In this document: piece by piece, positions 20,917 to 27,270 of the stretch
Layout: each line of letters starts with the position of its first letter
Numbering within the stretch: the first letter of the stretch is position 1
Assembly: GCA_029210625.1 (NCBI GenBank)
Contig: JARGFU010000003.1
Location: 124,001-188,000, forward strand
Direction of reading: 5' to 3'
Origin: Deltaproteobacteria bacterium
GTDB taxonomy: Bacteria; Myxococcota; Myxococcia; SLRQ01
Length of the DNA stretch: 64,000 nucleotides
The notes under the pieces: generated by a model
What the model saw: only the letters and a program-made list of their open reading frames with translations
What the model was told of the DNA's origin: nothing
The model's database searches: none
Made by a program: the position numbers and the translations under genes

Positions 20917-21669
20917 ATGCCGACGCTGCTGCGCCCGCTCTCCATCGTGGTGCTCACCCTCGCCGCGGCCTGGCCACGCGCCGGGGCGGCCTCGACGCCG
21001 GGCTACGTCCCGCGCCTCGCGCTGCCCACCCTCGAGGCGCCCGCAGCGCCGGTGCGTTTGCGCCTGCTGGCCGAGGAGCGCTACGACGTCGCGAAGCTGA
21101 ACGACGGCACGGTGCTGGTGGGCAAGATCATCCGGGAGAACGAGGTGGGGGTGGTCTTCCGGACGGCCGACGGGAAGACCCGCCTCATCAAGTACGAGGA
21201 GCTGGCCGACCTGCAGTCGACGAAGCCGGCGGCGGCCTCGCCCGGGCCGCCCGCCCACGCCACCCCCGGGGTGCCCCCGCCGCACGCGGCAGGGAGGGGG
21301 AGCCTGACGCCCCAGCAGGCGGAGCGGCGCCGGATGCTGGCGGCGGAGCGGGACGGGCTGGTCGAGCAGCGGGCGAAGATCAGCCTCCTGCCCTCGACCC
21401 TCGGGCTCATCGGCGGCCTCGCCCTCATCGCCGTCTCCCCCCTGCTGGTGAACAACTCGACCGAGCTGACGGCGCTCATCGTCTGCGGCGGGCTCATCGC
21501 CGGCCTCGGCGCCCTCGGCCTGATCTTCAAGGTCATCGGCCGCAGCCAGCTGGACCGGCAGATCCGGGAGAAGAACCGGGAGATCCAGAAGCTCTACCCC
21601 GAGACCACCCGGGTCCCCGCGCCCCTTCCCGTCGGCGGCTTCGAGCTCGCCCTCGTCGCCAACTTCTAG
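20917..21669 (+). CDS. Membrane protein with signal peptide and small beta domain (250 aa), first gene of operon
   Basis: Unknown function. A signal peptide (to about residue 25) is followed by a small beta domain with KLNDGTVLVGKIIRENEVG and VVFRTADGKTRLI, a barrel-like motif common in envelope proteins. Next come a Pro/Ala linker, a short coiled-coil-like segment (ERRRMLAAERDGLVEQRAK), two adjacent TM helices (about 160-205) and a charged tail (RQIREKNREIQKLY). GGGAGGG precedes the ATG. The next gene starts 10 bp after the stop, so this is probably the first gene of the operon containing the radical SAM pair. Confidence 0.75.
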   Translation: MPTLLRPLSIVVLTLAAAWPRAGAASTPGYVPRLALPTLEAPAAPVRLRLLAEERYDVAKLNDGTVLVGKIIRENEVGVVFRTADGKTRLIKYEELADLQSTKPAAASPGPPAHATPGVPPPHAAGRGSLTPQQAERRRMLAAERDGLVEQRAKISLLPSTLGLIGGLALIAVSPLLVNNSTELTALIVCGGLIAGLGALGLIFKVIGRSQLDRQIREKNREIQKLYPETTRVPAPLPVGGFELALVANF

Positions 21670-21679
21670 GAGGCTCTCG

Positions 21680-22015
21680 ATGAAAGGTGTGGTGTACGGA
21701 CTCGCGGGTTTGCTGGGGCTCCTGGGCCTCGTCTTCATCGCCGGCGCCCAGGGGCTGGTCGCCCGCTACGTCCTCGGCGCGGTCCTCCTGGTCGCCGGCC
21801 TCACCCTGGTCGCGGTGATGCGGCTGCGGCCGAGCCAGACGACGATCACCCAGAAGATCGACCTCTCGGGGGACGTCGCGGTCGAGCGCCTGGTCTGCCA
21901 GCAGTGTGCGGGGATGCTGGACGCCTCCTCGGTGCGGGTGGAGGCCGGCGCCATCTTCGTGGCCTGCCCCTACTGCAAGGCGGCCTATCAGATCGAGGAA
22001 GCCCCGAAGTGGTAG
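21680..22015 (+). CDS. Small two-TM protein with C-terminal zinc ribbon (111 aa)
   Basis: Two TM helices (about 5-24 and 29-47) are followed by a short spacer and a probable zinc ribbon, C73xxC76...C96xxC99 (LVCQQC and ACPYCKAAY). AGGAGG sits well before the ATG. Its stop overlaps the GTG start of the radical SAM gene. By position it is part of the modification operon. It might be an accessory or redox/metal-handling protein, but nothing in the sequence proves this. Confidence 0.8.
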   Translation: MKGVVYGLAGLLGLLGLVFIAGAQGLVARYVLGAVLLVAGLTLVAVMRLRPSQTTITQKIDLSGDVAVERLVCQQCAGMLDASSVRVEAGAIFVACPYCKAAYQIEEAPKW

Positions 22016-23508
22016 GCGCGGGCCTGGCCCTGGCGGGCCGCCGCCTGCGAGAGGACCTCGCCGGCTTCGGACGGGCGCTCGGGCTCGGCCGCGCCGCGCC
22101 CCCGCCCCGGCTCCGCGTCTACCGACGGGAGCGCCACGGCGGCCACACCACGCTCCACCTTCGGCGGCAGTCGGGGGGTGGGGCGCTCCTCTTCGTCGAC
22201 GCGATGGAGGTGATCCACCTCTCGCCCACCGCCGCGCACCTCGCCTCCCTCGTCCTCGAGGAGGTGCCCGAGGCGGCGGCCCTCGCCGAGCTGCGCCGGA
22301 GCTGGCGGGGCGCGCCCGGGGCGCGGCTCCGGGACGATCTCCACGCCATGCGGGCGCGCCTCGAGCAGCTCTCCGATCCGCGGACGGCCTGCCGCACCTG
22401 CGATCTTCCCGCCGAGCGGCTGCCGGTCTTCGGCCAGCGGGGAGACGCCCCCTACAAGGCGGACCTGGCGCTCACCTACGCCTGCAACAACGGCTGCCCC
22501 CACTGCTACAACGACCCCGCGCACTTCGATCGGCCGCCGCTCTCCGCGGCCCGGTGGTGCGAGCTCGTGGATCGACTGGCCGAGGTGGGCGTGCCTCACC
22601 TGATCCTGACGGGCGGCGAGGCGACCCTGCACCCGGGGCTGGTGGAGATCGTCGCCCACGCCCACCACCGGGGGCTGCTGGTGGGGCTGAACACCAACGG
22701 CCGCCGCCTGGGGAGCGGCGCGGCCGGCCGCGCCCTGGCCCGGGAGCTGGCGGCCGCGGGGCTCGACCACGTGCAGGTCACCCTCGAGAGCCACCGGCCC
22801 GAGGTCCACGACGCGATGGTGGGCGCGCGGGCCTTCGAGCAGACCGTGGCCGGGGTGGAGGCGGCCCTGGCGGCCGGGCTCTCCGTGCTCACCAACACCA
22901 CGCTCACCCGGGCGAACGCGCGAGAGCTCCCCGAGACCCTCGACTTCCTCGCCGGGCTGGGGCTCCAGGCCGTGGCCCTCAACGCGATCATCCACGCCGG
23001 GGGAGGCAGCGCGAACCCCGACGCCCTCCCGGCCGGGGCGCTCGCGCCGATCCTGGTCGAGGCCCGGGAGCGCAGCCGCGGCCTGGGCCTGCGCCTGCTC
23101 TGGTACACGGTGACCGACTACTGCGAGCTCTCCCCGGTGGAGCTCGAGCTCGGGCCGAAGCGCTGCAACGCCGGCGAGTACTCGGTCTGCCTCGAGCCCG
23201 ACGGCGAGGTCCTGCCCTGCCAGAGCTACCCGGCCTCGGCGGGCAACCTGCTGCACACCGAGTGGGAGACGATCTGGGAGAGCGAGCTCTTCCGCTCCTT
23301 CCGCGAGCGTGAGCTCGACCCCGGGCGCCTGCCCGAGAAGTGCCGCGGCTGCCCCGACCTCTCCCTCTGCGGGGGGGGCTGCCGGCTGGAGCACGAGGCG
23401 CGGTCGCGGGGAGAGACGAGCGAGGCCTGCGCGGGCTGTGGTGGACGATCGAGCGGGGCGAGCGCGCTGGTGCAGCTCGCGGCGCCAGGAGGTGGACGAT
23501 GGGGATGA
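22009..23508 (+). CDS. PqqD-like/radical SAM/SPASM peptide-modifying enzyme (499 aa)
   Basis: A probable RiPP-type maturase. Residues about 35-125 look like a PqqD-type recognition element (ALLFVDAMEVIHLSPTAAH). The radical SAM core has CNNGCPHC (C159, C163, C166), ILTGGEAT (GGE 202-204), NTNGRRL and QVTLESH. The C-terminus has a full seven-cysteine SPASM pattern: RCNAGEYSVCLEPDG...LPC, then CRGCPDLSLCGGGC, then CAGC, which binds auxiliary [4Fe-4S] clusters. Such enzymes form thioether or carbon-carbon links on peptides bound through the recognition element. The GTG start at 22009 follows GAGGAA by 8 nt and overlaps the upstream stop. The likely substrate is the Cys-tailed protein two genes downstream. 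Confidence 0.9.
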   Translation: MVGAGLALAGRRLREDLAGFGRALGLGRAAPPPRLRVYRRERHGGHTTLHLRRQSGGGALLFVDAMEVIHLSPTAAHLASLVLEEVPEAAALAELRRSWRGAPGARLRDDLHAMRARLEQLSDPRTACRTCDLPAERLPVFGQRGDAPYKADLALTYACNNGCPHCYNDPAHFDRPPLSAARWCELVDRLAEVGVPHLILTGGEATLHPGLVEIVAHAHHRGLLVGLNTNGRRLGSGAAGRALARELAAAGLDHVQVTLESHRPEVHDAMVGARAFEQTVAGVEAALAAGLSVLTNTTLTRANARELPETLDFLAGLGLQAVALNAIIHAGGGSANPDALPAGALAPILVEARERSRGLGLRLLWYTVTDYCELSPVELELGPKRCNAGEYSVCLEPDGEVLPCQSYPASAGNLLHTEWETIWESELFRSFRERELDPGRLPEKCRGCPDLSLCGGGCRLEHEARSRGETSEACAGCGGRSSGASALVQLAAPGGGRWG

Positions 23509-24758
23509 AGTGGATGCAGCGGCTCCTCTGGCCGACGGTCTCGGGCGGGACCCCCGAGCCGGGGCTCTACCACTACCGGGAGGAGCGGGACGGGCGGGTC
23601 CGCCGCTACCACCTGCGGATCGACGCCGACGGCGCGGGCGTCCTCACCGTCGATGCCCGGGGTCTCTGCCGCCTCTCGCCGGTCGGCGTGATGATGGCGC
23701 AGGGGCTCCTCGGCGGTGAGGCCCCCGCGAGCCTGGGGGCCCGCGTCGCGCGCGCCTTCCGGGGGAGGAGCGTCGATGCCATCCACGACGATCTGCGCGA
23801 CCTCCAGGCCACGCTGAAGCGGCTCTCCCTGGGCCGGGCCGGCGCCGTGCGCGATCTCGACGGGATCGGCGCGAGCCCCTTCGCCCGCTCCCTCTCCGCG
23901 CCCCTCTGCGCCGACGTCGAGGTCGGCACGCTCCAGGCGGGCCGGGCGGTGGTCGATCGCCTGCGGGCGATCGGCGTCCCCCAGGTGGTCTGGGTGCTCG
24001 GCGACGAGCCCGCCCCCGAGCACCTGCCCGAGCTGGTGGAGCGGGCGGAGGATCAGGGGCTGATCTGCGGCCTGCGGACCCGGGCGAGCGCGCTGCCCCT
24101 GGCCCTCCTCGAGCGGGCGATCGAGGCCGGCCTCGACCACCTCGATCTGCTCTTCCTGCCCGAGGCCGAGCTGCACGCGGCCTGGCTGGGGGAGGGGGAC
24201 CGGGAGGCCGCCGGGCGGAACCTGGCCCTCGCCCGCGAGGCCGAGATCGGCGCGCCGGCCGTGGTCGCGCTGCGCCCCGGCGAGGACGAGCCGGCCGCGG
24301 CCATCGAGGCTCTCCGGAGCTTCGGCTTCCGCCAGGCGGCCTTCCACGCCCTCCTCGACCCCGAAGGGGAGGCCGGGCGCGCGCTGCCCCAGCTGGCGGT
24401 CGACCTCGAGGAGGCCCTCACCGCCGCGGGCTTCCCCGGCCAGTGGGGCCCCCCCCACGCGGTCCCCGCCGCGGCCCACCCGAAGGCGGCCCGCCGGGGC
24501 CCCCGGACCGTGGGGGAGGTGACGGTGCGGGTCCTCGCGGGGGGTGAGATCCTGCCACCCACCGGGGCGCCGAACCCCGTGGGCAACCTGCTCGGGGAGA
24601 GCTGGGCGCGGCTCTGGCAGGCCCCGGCCTTCACCCCCTGGCGAGAGGCCAGCGAGGCCCCCGAGCGCTGCCCCACCTGCCCCGGCCTGGAGATCTGCGA
24701 GGGCGGCTGCCCCGCGGAAGCCGGGAGCTGGGCCAGCAGCGGGGAGGTGAGGTCATGA
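23499..24758 (+). CDS. Degenerate radical SAM paralogue with PqqD-like N-terminus and partial SPASM (419 aa)
   Basis: A pseudo-enzyme partner. The N-terminus repeats the PqqD-like pattern (VLTVDARGLCRLSPVG, then a helical RSVDAIHDDLRDL). Where the active paralogue has CNNGCPHC this protein has a shortened SLSAPLCADVEVG with a single Cys, so it cannot hold the SAM-binding cluster. The barrel is still recognisable: VVWVLGDEPAPEHLPEL (G168-E170) aligns with LILTGGEATLHPGL. The C-terminal cluster site is kept as C391, C394, C400 and C404 (CX2CX5CX3C). AGGAGG lies 5 nt before the ATG at 23499; the ATG at 23505 is an alternative. The gene overlaps both neighbours. I infer a heteromeric complex with the 22009 enzyme, with this subunit binding or presenting the substrate. 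Confidence 0.85.
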   Translation: MGMKWMQRLLWPTVSGGTPEPGLYHYREERDGRVRRYHLRIDADGAGVLTVDARGLCRLSPVGVMMAQGLLGGEAPASLGARVARAFRGRSVDAIHDDLRDLQATLKRLSLGRAGAVRDLDGIGASPFARSLSAPLCADVEVGTLQAGRAVVDRLRAIGVPQVVWVLGDEPAPEHLPELVERAEDQGLICGLRTRASALPLALLERAIEAGLDHLDLLFLPEAELHAAWLGEGDREAAGRNLALAREAEIGAPAVVALRPGEDEPAAAIEALRSFGFRQAAFHALLDPEGEAGRALPQLAVDLEEALTAAGFPGQWGPPHAVPAAAHPKAARRGPRTVGEVTVRVLAGGEILPPTGAPNPVGNLLGESWARLWQAPAFTPWREASEAPERCPTCPGLEICEGGCPAEAGSWASSGEVRS

Positions 24759-26551
24759 GGCGCCTCCTCCTCCTGCTGGTGCTCCTCTCCCTGGCGCGGC
24801 CGACGGCGGCCGAGGCCCTCTACGCCTTCGAGGTGAACTCGGTCGAGTTCCAGGCGACGGTCCTGCCCGACGGCGACGTGCGCCTGCGCTACGACATCGT
24901 GTTCACCAACCTGCCTCATGCGGAGGCCATCGACGTCGTGGACGTGGGGATGCCCAAGCCGGGCTACTCCATCGGCTCGATGATCGGGTGGCTCGACAGC
25001 AACGCCCTTCACGACATCCGGCCCTCGACCTATGTCGATCCCGGCGTGGAGGTGCACCTCGGATACTGGGCGATCCCGCCGGGCGCCACCCGCACCTTCT
25101 CCTTCGAGGCCTCGGTCACCGACCTGGTCTTCTCGGACACCACCGACGACGAGCTGGCCTCCTTCCAGATCACGCCGACCTGGTTCGGTGATCAGTTCGT
25201 CACCGGGACCACCGATCTGAAGATCGCCGTCCACCTCCCCGAGGGGGTCGACCCCGAGCGGGTGCTCCACCAGGGGGTGCCCTTCCAGGCCCGGGCGCTC
25301 TTCCAGGACCACGCCGTCGCGACCTGGCACTTCCCGGCCACCCGCTTCACCGGCCCCCACAAGGTCGGCCTCTCCTTCCCCCGGGACGTCATGGAGCCGG
25401 GCGCCGTCATCGAGATGACCCTCTGGGATCTCTTCTGGCTCTGGTGGGTGGGCAACGAGACGGTGCGCGGGGTGATCGGCGTGGTCCTCGCCATCCTCCT
25501 CCTCGTCTTCTTCCTGCGCTTCACCGGCATGACCGGCTGGACGGTGATCGTCATCGCCCTGGGCCTCGGGACCCTCTTCTACGTGACCCGTCCGGGCTTC
25601 GCCCTGGCGATGGTCTTCGTCGTGCCGCTGCTCTGCTTCCTGATGGAGCGGGCGCTGCGCAAGAAGCGGCGCGACTACCTGCCCCCGATCGTCAGCGTGG
25701 AGGGAGGGGGCATCAAGCGGGGCCTCACCGCCCCGGAGGCCGCCGCGCTCCTCGAGGTGCCGCCGGGCAAGGTGCTCACCCTGGTGGTCTTCGGTCTGCT
25801 CAAGAAGAAGATCATCAGTCAGCTCCGGGCGGATCCCCTCAAGGTCGAGGTCGAGGGGCCCTACAAGCGCGACCCGAAGAAGCGCCGGGCCGCGGCCGCC
25901 AAGGCCGGGGTCGTCCTCCACACCTACGAGCACGCCTTCCTCGACGCCATGCAGGAGGGGGACGGACAGGACCTCAAGGAGATCTCCTTCGGGCCGGCGA
26001 TGAAGGAGCTCTTCCAGCACGTGGCCGACCGGGTCTCCGGCTTCGACGTGAAGGAGACGAAGGCCTACTACCAGTACATCGTGAGCAAGGCATGGGCCCA
26101 GGCTCAGGGTCTGGGCGAGATCGAACAGCGCACCGCCGCGGTGGACCGTGACCTCGAGTGGCTGCTCCTCGATCCCGACTACGACGGTCACTTCGGGCAC
26201 TGGCACCACCACGGCTACCACTACCGCCCGGTCTGGGCCCGCAGCGGGGGCCTCGGGGATCTGGCCGGGGCCGCGGCCTCCGGGGGCGGCGATCACGTCC
26301 CCAGCGTCTCGGACATCACCGGCTCCTTCTCGGGCTGGGCCGAGGGGCTGGCGAGCGACGTGGCCTCCGCCGTCCTCCCCGGCGAGAGCGGGGGAGGGGG
26401 CTTCGTCGACCTCTCCGGGATCGACCGCACCACGGGCGACATCTTCGAGGCCCTGGCCGAGTCGGGCGGCAGCGGCGGAGGCGGAGGGGGTGGCGGCTGC
26501 GCCTGCGCGGGCTGCGCCTGCGCCTGCGCCTGCGCCGGAGGGGGGCGTTGA
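24755..26551 (+). CDS. DUF2207/TIGR04222-like membrane protein with Gly run and six-Cys tail, candidate modified substrate (598 aa)
   Basis: A signal peptide (MRRLLLLLVLLSL to about residue 22) precedes an extracytoplasmic beta domain (25-230, DUF2207-like: YAFEVNSVEFQATVLPDGDV). Three TM helices follow (about 237-256, 262-277, 281-301), then RKKRR, which fixes the rest in the cytoplasm. The cytoplasmic part has a winged-helix-like segment (TAPEAAALLEVP...VVFGLLKKKII) and a helical region. The C-terminus is eight consecutive Gly (574-581), then C582, C584, C587, C589, C591 and C593 separated by Ala or Ala-Gly, ending GGGR. ATGA overlaps upstream and TTGA overlaps downstream. From memory, TIGR04222-type proteins often have Gly/Cys-rich tails. 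The tail fits a radical SAM substrate; metal binding is the alternative. Confidence 0.85.
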   Translation: MRRLLLLLVLLSLARPTAAEALYAFEVNSVEFQATVLPDGDVRLRYDIVFTNLPHAEAIDVVDVGMPKPGYSIGSMIGWLDSNALHDIRPSTYVDPGVEVHLGYWAIPPGATRTFSFEASVTDLVFSDTTDDELASFQITPTWFGDQFVTGTTDLKIAVHLPEGVDPERVLHQGVPFQARALFQDHAVATWHFPATRFTGPHKVGLSFPRDVMEPGAVIEMTLWDLFWLWWVGNETVRGVIGVVLAILLLVFFLRFTGMTGWTVIVIALGLGTLFYVTRPGFALAMVFVVPLLCFLMERALRKKRRDYLPPIVSVEGGGIKRGLTAPEAAALLEVPPGKVLTLVVFGLLKKKIISQLRADPLKVEVEGPYKRDPKKRRAAAAKAGVVLHTYEHAFLDAMQEGDGQDLKEISFGPAMKELFQHVADRVSGFDVKETKAYYQYIVSKAWAQAQGLGEIEQRTAAVDRDLEWLLLDPDYDGHFGHWHHHGYHYRPVWARSGGLGDLAGAAASGGGDHVPSVSDITGSFSGWAEGLASDVASAVLPGESGGGGFVDLSGIDRTTGDIFEALAESGGSGGGGGGGGCACAGCACACACAGGGR

Positions 26552-27270
26552 GCGAGGCCGGCGGCGACCACCCCTCGCGGCCGGAGGCCGAGCTGCAGGC
26601 CCACCTGGCCGACGCCCTCTATGGCCTGCGCAGCCGGGCCCTGCGGCGGCTCTCGCTGCCCACCCTGGGGCCGGTCCTCGATCTGGGCTGCGGCCGGGGG
26701 CGGGTCAGCGCCGAGCTGCGGCGCCGCTGCCGGGGGCCGGTCGTCGCCCTCGATCTCGACGCCGGGATGGCGCGGGAGGCCGGGGCGCCCTCGGTGGTGG
26801 GGCGGGCCGAGGCGCTGCCCTTCACCGACGGCCGCTTCGCCCTGGTCTTCGCGCAGCTCGCCTTCCTCTGGTTCGAGGATCTCGAGGCGGCGCTCGACGA
26901 GGTGAGGCGGGTGCTGCGCCCCGGCGGGGTGCTCGTCGCCCTGGAGCCGGACTACCCCGGCCTGATCGAGAGCCCCCCCGAGCTGGGCCTGCGGGAGCTC
27001 TGGGTGGCGGCCCTGGAGCGCGCCGGCGGCCGACCGGCGGCCGGGCGGGAGCTGCACGCCGCCCTGGCGCGGCGCGGGGCCCGGATCGAGGTCGATCTCC
27101 TGGGCGGACCGGGGCAGGATCTCGAGGCCGGCCTGCGCCTCCTCGAGGGGCTCCGCCTGCGGGGCGAGGAGGAGGACCGCCTGCGGGCGGCGCGCGCCCA
27201 CCCCCTGGTGGCGGCCGGGCGGGCGATGGTGCACCTGCCCTTCCTCGCCCTGAGCGCCCACCTCGACTGA
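26548..27270 (+). CDS. Class I SAM-dependent methyltransferase (240 aa), last gene of operon
   Basis: Motif I is clear (VLDLGCGRGRV, residues 43-53). It is followed by VVALDLDAGM (acidic end of beta 2), GRAEALPF, LVFAQLAFLWFEDLEAAL and VLRPGGVLVALEPD, the Methyltransf_11-type order. The frame stays open well upstream, but TTG at 26548 is chosen: it overlaps the previous stop (TTGA), GGAGGGG lies just before it, and the methyltransferase fold begins soon after. Tight coupling to the Cys-tail gene suggests it acts in the same pathway, possibly on the tail or a released product. Its target is not known. Confidence 0.85.
   Translation: MSEAGGDHPSRPEAELQAHLADALYGLRSRALRRLSLPTLGPVLDLGCGRGRVSAELRRRCRGPVVALDLDAGMAREAGAPSVVGRAEALPFTDGRFALVFAQLAFLWFEDLEAALDEVRRVLRPGGVLVALEPDYPGLIESPPELGLRELWVAALERAGGRPAAGRELHAALARRGARIEVDLLGGPGQDLEAGLRLLEGLRLRGEEEDRLRAARAHPLVAAGRAMVHLPFLALSAHLD

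Follow-up and report, generated by a model that had tools for sequence, protein, structure and literature searches.

What does a radical S-adenosylmethionine (SAM) enzyme do when it is encoded next to a homologue that lacks the catalytic cluster and next to a membrane protein that ends in a Cys-rich tail? The question is raised by positions 20,917–27,270 of the stretch of DNA analyzed here (the window), 64,000 nucleotides of a Deltaproteobacteria bacterium (Myxococcota; GenBank assembly GCA_029210625.1, contig JARGFU010000003.1, positions 124,001 to 188,000, forward strand). The genes in question encode a zinc-ribbon membrane protein with two transmembrane (TM) helices, which we call TM2, a radical SAM/SPASM enzyme, its inactive partner, the tail-bearing membrane protein (the carrier) and a methyltransferase. 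We report that these genes form a block conserved over several phyla and that the carrier terminates in an almost invariant Cys-Ala repeat. We consider it very likely that the block serves the post-translational maturation of a single membrane protein and is dedicated to it, the radical SAM enzyme and its dead partner acting on the tail.

Results

A nearly invariant Cys-Ala terminus

The window carrier, a protein of 598 amino acids (complete homologues, 500–650), ends in eight Gly followed by six Cys, GGGGGGGGCACAGCACACACAGGGR. The window has a single instance of this pattern, and none of 100 shuffles contained it. An alignment of four tail proteins served as query for a scan of GTDB-representative contigs. 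The scan worked through two N-terminal motifs and obtained 79 loci, so that nothing in the search favoured the tail. Of the complete tail proteins, 82 could be read, and every one had the C-terminus (CA)1-4-G-(CA)3-4-GGGR followed by the stop codon (two further rows were left out, one with a masked stretch of N and one with a frame change near the end). Mean identity was 98% in the last 15 residues, as against 32–60% in every other region. The tail codons vary freely, every codon for Cys (two), Ala, Gly and Arg (six) being in use, and the constraint therefore acts on the protein. The CACACAGGG pattern was present essentially once per carrier gene in 37 of 37 genomes, with 0 occurrences in the reversed control. 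The total number of tail Cys ranges from 5 to 7 among homologues, which would be easier to reconcile with a local modification repeated along the tail than with a metal site that needs a set number of ligands. Tandem pairs of carrier genes, the first copy being shorter, occur at eight loci (L028, L038, L041, L047, L065, L078, L082 and L083); wherever readable, the CA tail is complete on both carriers.

A five-gene block in several phyla

The recurring block has the order TM2/zinc-ribbon protein, radical SAM enzyme, inactive partner, tail protein and methyltransferase, and all-against-all clustering of open reading frames (ORFs) across the loci identified these five families as the only recurrent neighbours. 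The 79 loci comprise 38 from Chloroflexota, 18 recorded as Armatimonadota (including Zipacnadia), 10 from Planctomycetota, 4 from Myxococcota, one each from Sumerlaeota, Acidobacteriota and Fermentibacterota, and 6 that are unplaced. In a first sample of the window's own phylum, the tail protein was present in 3 of 193 genomes, all of which keep the five-gene order, the block being split over contigs in one. Among loci with enough flanking sequence, the inactive partner was encoded within 1 kb upstream of the tail gene in 59 of 71, the radical SAM gene lay on the same piece as the tail gene in 37 of 48, and a methyltransferase homologue followed within 3.2 kb downstream in 42 of 60. TM2 homologues of 50–56% identity stand directly upstream of the radical SAM gene in relatives. 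A single-protein scan of genome contigs with the inactive partner as query gave no match, and no plasmid record carried the carrier gene.

Co-occurrence of the tail and the radical SAM enzyme

An earlier note on this DNA, made from the sequence without database searches, had proposed to check the co-occurrence of the gene families across Myxococcota, and had named tails regularly occurring without the radical SAM genes as the outcome that would count against it. The association extends far beyond Myxococcota, and that outcome was contradicted. Among 249 genomes of one Chloroflexota class (Anaerolineae), 30 encoded the tail protein and 34 the radical SAM enzyme (family cut-off E <1e-170, the next matches appearing only at 1e-99), and all 30 were shared (Fisher, 1e-34). 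In the phylum sample of the window, the enzyme was found at E <1e-100 in exactly the three genomes with the tail protein. These two samples were unbiased; in a further 26 genomes, picked mostly because the radical SAM gene was missing beside the tail gene or lost at a contig end, it was found elsewhere in the genome in 22. We set aside a fourth Myxococcota genome (G018), in which no tail gene could be recognised near the related enzyme (E 2e-66). The pairwise distances of the tail protein, the radical SAM enzyme and the inactive partner correlate at 0.86–0.91.

An active enzyme and an inactive partner

The window enzyme contains CNNGCPHC plus a SPASM domain (Pfam Radical_SAM, 4.8e-26; SPASM, 3.1e-11). 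CX3CX2C is present in all 48 full-length family enzymes of the loci, and in a 46-member alignment the cluster Cys are invariant and the SPASM Cys invariant or nearly so. With CX3CX2C and the full SPASM Cys set, the family has a defining feature of SPASM peptide maturases with a recognition element (RRE) for ribosomally synthesized and post-translationally modified peptides (RiPPs). Its closest solved relatives by sequence are SkfB, PqqE and SuiB; SkfB is described as a sactisynthase that forms thioethers from Cys sulfur to an alpha-carbon (PMC6231123).

The product of the fourth gene of the run lacks CX3CX2C and gave weak PqqE/SPASM matches. The motif is missing from 64 of 64 inactive partners, which retain only CX2CX5CX3C, nearly invariant. 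The AlphaFold2 model of the inactive partner (predicted template modelling score 0.88) matched the structures of SuiB and SkfB over nearly the full length. Pfam PqqD matched 12 of 46 members of the active family and 27 of 56 of the inactive one, which confirms the PqqD-like recognition element for members of both. The last gene encodes a class I methyltransferase (Methyltransf_11, 4.5e-21), whose score against the nearest curated model, DVU_1556, was far below the cut-off.

Topology and relatives of the carrier

In the AlphaFold2 model of the carrier (predicted local distance difference test score 84.7), a signal helix precedes a beta domain and three TM helices; these are followed by a cytoplasmic domain, which is helical, and by the Gly linker and tail, which are disordered. 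In a fold search, the beta domain resembled M1 aminopeptidase and ribophorin I. Lys/Arg amounted to 4.4 after the third TM helix versus ~0.1 in the two inter-helix loops. Since positive charge follows this helix, the positive-inside rule predicts that the C-terminal domain and the tail are cytoplasmic, in line with the placement suggested in the earlier note, and this should put the tail where the radical SAM enzyme can work.

No family of Pfam or NCBIfam 20.0 matched the window carrier above its cut-off. PF09972 (DUF2207) matched one of 66 members of the tail family (E 0.0081, below membership), which was not the window's protein, and no DUF2207 protein was found in the genome or the phylum sample. 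The link to TIGR04222 that the earlier note had drawn failed for the window protein: the model matched 0 of 66 tail carriers at E 0.05, and a two-sequence TIGR04222 alignment gave no significant profile match with the tail family. The link did hold for homologues in a sister system, described below as system B, of whose carriers 12 of 16 were matched (best 6.3e-10). Because the direct profile comparison gave no significant match, the relation between the tail family and TIGR04222 rests on system B.

Sister systems with other tails

Within the window's family (system A), an A-prime subfamily (L087–L093 and several Anaerolineae) has the tail (CA)4 G (CA)3 GGGR and also has the methyltransferase. 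Three of its loci (L087, L088 and L092) encode their own degenerate radical SAM protein, which is differently placed, has 1–2 Cys and falls outside the main inactive-partner clade. A convergent origin of the A and A-prime inactive partners is hinted at by the tree, which places them in separate clades (98/98), but the approximately unbiased test (p 0.065) fails to reject a single origin, and we make no such claim.

System B was found in the window's genome (L014:3430-8691, contig C6, ~208.4–213.7 kb). There, a TIGR04222-related carrier with a CHSACHSAC-repeat end is followed by a radical SAM/SPASM enzyme, a zinc-ribbon coiled coil and a two-TM zinc-ribbon protein. The carriers of systems A and B are homologous (hhalign 99.7%, E 5e-27). 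System B is widespread in Anaerolineae, where its tail is almost invariant; carrier and radical SAM enzyme occur together in 29 genomes, with one genome having the carrier alone and one the enzyme alone. Each of the two systems occurs in 30 of the 249 Anaerolineae, and never both in that sample; both occur in two other Anaerolineae (G199 and G217) and in the window's genome.

In a third system of the window's genome, the gene of a TIGR04222 membrane protein whose tail is (GGC)n immediately precedes a radical SAM/SPASM gene (L164:5190-7130, minus strand, contig C1, ~59–61 kb); the TIGR04222 frame contains an in-frame TAG. In another genome of the same class (L165), a TIGR04222 protein adjoins, as read by eye, an apparent DUF692/MNIO gene. 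Given system B, the C1 site and L165, the carriers, though homologous, seem to be combined with tails and oxidative enzymes of different kinds.

Gene layout in the window

Translation of the window re-derived the six ORFs listed in the earlier note, with a 10-bp gap followed by overlaps of 7, 10, 4 and 4 bp (Table 1). The products it had described, a PqqD-like/radical SAM/SPASM enzyme, a paralogue without the cluster, a three-TM protein with eight Gly and six Cys at its C-terminus and a final methyltransferase, were all recovered. Its six-gene operon stands as a run of abutting or overlapping ORFs and falls short as a conserved unit. The first product combines TM helices with a charged central part, and the all-against-all ORF clustering of neighbourhoods gave no homologue of it at any of ~80 related loci. 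Since this gene does not recur, we take the conserved system to be five genes; the first is probably not part of it, the gap to TM2 being the sole basis for membership.

Table 1 Features of the locus, in window coordinates
Feature	Position	Strand	Evidence
First gene of the run, 250-aa membrane protein, probably outside the conserved system	20917..21669	+	10-bp gap to TM2
TM2, 111 aa, two-TM hairpin and CxxC...CxxC zinc-ribbon-like domain, C-terminal EEAPKW	21680..22015	+	Translation, homologues
Active radical SAM/SPASM enzyme, N-terminal PqqD-like recognition element	22009..23508	+	CX3CX2C, SPASM, alignment, Pfam
Inactive radical SAM paralogue: RRE, TIM barrel, partial SPASM CX2CX5CX3C	23499..24758	+	Homologues, AlphaFold2 model
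Tail carrier: signal peptide, beta domain, three TM helices, cytoplasmic domain, Gly linker, Cys-Ala tail	24755..26551	+	Translation, 66-member alignment, AlphaFold2 model
Tail CACAGCACACACAGGGR, presumed modified segment	26498..26548	+	82/82 homologues, free codon wobble
SAM-dependent methyltransferase, class I	26548..27270	+	Pfam match, downstream homologues

Discussion

The nearest published case is the pairing of TIGR04222 proteins with MNIO enzymes; many TIGR04222 clusters are reported there to be without MNIO genes, and a term search of that paper found no radical SAM partner of TIGR04222 proteins named (PMC12452194). That pairing and the system described here share a polytopic membrane protein, a low-complexity Gly/Cys C-terminal tail and an adjoining oxidative peptide-modifying enzyme. 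They differ in that the window enzyme is a radical SAM/SPASM protein with an inactive partner and not an MNIO, a family that is not among the five recurring at the loci. Moreover, the CA tail of the window family is invariant and predicted to be cytoplasmic, whereas TIGR04222 tails are variable, more than a quarter lack Cys, and they are predicted to be periplasmic (PMC12452194).

With the sactisynthases and other RRE-SPASM RiPP maturases (SkfB, SuiB, CteB and PqqE), the system shares the order RRE, radical SAM, SPASM and a Cys-rich target. Unlike in those maturases, the presumed substrate is the tail of a ~600-aa membrane protein, and a dead paralogue is usually encoded alongside. Sactipeptides and ranthipeptides are recognised by a small precursor peptide with leader and core; here, the Cys block is the tail of a large three-TM protein.

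GeoRSP (TIGR04303/TIGR04304) and halo pseudo-SAM (TIGR04347) are, as their NCBIfam names indicate, SPASM pairs with one member devoid of the radical SAM motif, and we know of no CA-tail protein in either. The window proteins stayed well short of the curated cut-offs and do not belong to GeoRSP, with 92 of 400 bits for TIGR04303 and 11.3 of 300 bits for TIGR04304. DUF2207 proteins have a similar layout, with an outside beta domain, TM helices, a cytoplasmic domain and a Gly-rich end; to our knowledge, they have neither a rule for a Cys tail nor a radical SAM partner, and their match to the window family is marginal and confined to one member. Literature searches on DUF2207 with radical SAM, membrane-bound precursors, CHSAC and GeoRSP, largely outside subscription papers and preprints, found no description of the system. 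We rate it as a form of radical SAM/SPASM peptide maturation, undescribed in the literature searched, whose substrate, as a membrane protein, would be unusual and in which an inactive partner is regularly present.

We infer the following order of maturation events. The carrier would reside in the inner membrane, exposing its beta domain to the outside and keeping the C-terminal domain, and with it the Cys-Ala tail, on the cytoplasmic side. There the tail, very likely the substrate, would be acted on jointly by the radical SAM/SPASM enzyme and the catalytically dead partner, both of which have PqqD-like elements. The dead partner would most likely hold the carrier or position the active enzyme, and a recognition or scaffold function is reasonably probable for it. 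The active enzyme would modify the alternating Cys-Ala repeat. By analogy with sactisynthases, our best single guess at the product, a tentative one, is a thioether from Cys sulfur to a neighbouring backbone or Ala carbon. TM2 may tether the enzymes at the membrane, and the methyltransferase may add or cap a group. The modified tail might then stay on the protein as a metal- or redox-active element instead of being released as a peptide, although we offer this last role as a guess.

Several observations weigh against such a maturation system. Four tail-bearing genomes have no radical SAM match; they are metagenome-assembled and may be incomplete. Neither the inactive partner nor the methyltransferase stands beside every tail gene, and the distance correlations are confounded by shared ancestry. 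Since no RiPP-type protease or exporter recurs in the clustered neighbourhoods, the system is not a classical RiPP pathway. A weak point, finally, is that the tail chemistry is inferred.

The membrane protein could instead serve as a RiPP leader whose tail is a sorting or cleavage signal (-CTERM-like), the enzymes preparing it for processing and the modified peptide being released. The short invariant terminus with its final Arg would suit such a signal, as would the Gly linker ahead of the Cys block, which resembles a leader/core boundary. We nevertheless consider this improbable, given the lack of a recurring protease or exporter, the predicted cytoplasmic location of the tail and the presence of one carrier gene or pair per genome, whereas sorting signals mark many proteins.

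It is more doubtful still that the tail is an unmodified, metallothionein-like metal-binding element and that the radical SAM enzyme acts on another site of the carrier or on a small molecule. CxC repeats can bind soft metals, the Cys number varies and the operon includes a zinc-ribbon protein. However, metal binding leaves unexplained the invariant Ala spacers, the central Gly and the terminal GGGR, and also why the tail should be so strictly paired with a SPASM enzyme of the peptide type that has PqqD elements. In system B, moreover, whose carrier is homologous, the tail repeat changes completely along with the radical SAM enzyme. We assign an equally low probability to methylation, rather than cross-linking, as the main modification, with the radical SAM enzyme preparing the tail and the methyltransferase acting on Cys, the C-terminus or Arg. 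Its presence near most tail genes and in the A-prime subfamily would agree with such a role, but the methyltransferase is the least tightly kept of the five genes and lies far from its nearest curated model. A chance neighbourhood of unrelated genes, for which nothing speaks except the non-conserved first gene, is refuted by the conserved order and co-occurrence over several phyla and has virtually no probability.

We thus return to a maturation system acting on the tail. A 15-residue Cys-Ala terminus that is nearly invariant over several phyla, on membrane proteins of otherwise 40–50% identity, and that comes with a radical SAM enzyme of its own is the sign of a specific chemistry, for which we found no assignment in the literature. 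In a wider reading, which we advance with reserve, an active/dead radical SAM pair would convert an invariant cytoplasmic Cys-Ala repeat into a new protein-derived cofactor; this widespread, undescribed system would belong to a larger class, in which homologous carriers differ in their Cys-repeat tails (CACA, CHSAC) and each is served by a separate radical SAM enzyme. If our interpretation is correct, radical SAM peptide chemistry would no longer be confined to natural products that are released but would include segments that membrane proteins retain permanently, and the system would provide a clear case of an active/inactive radical SAM pair with a directly testable substrate. The sister systems within one genome suggest a modular class composed of carrier, tail and enzyme.

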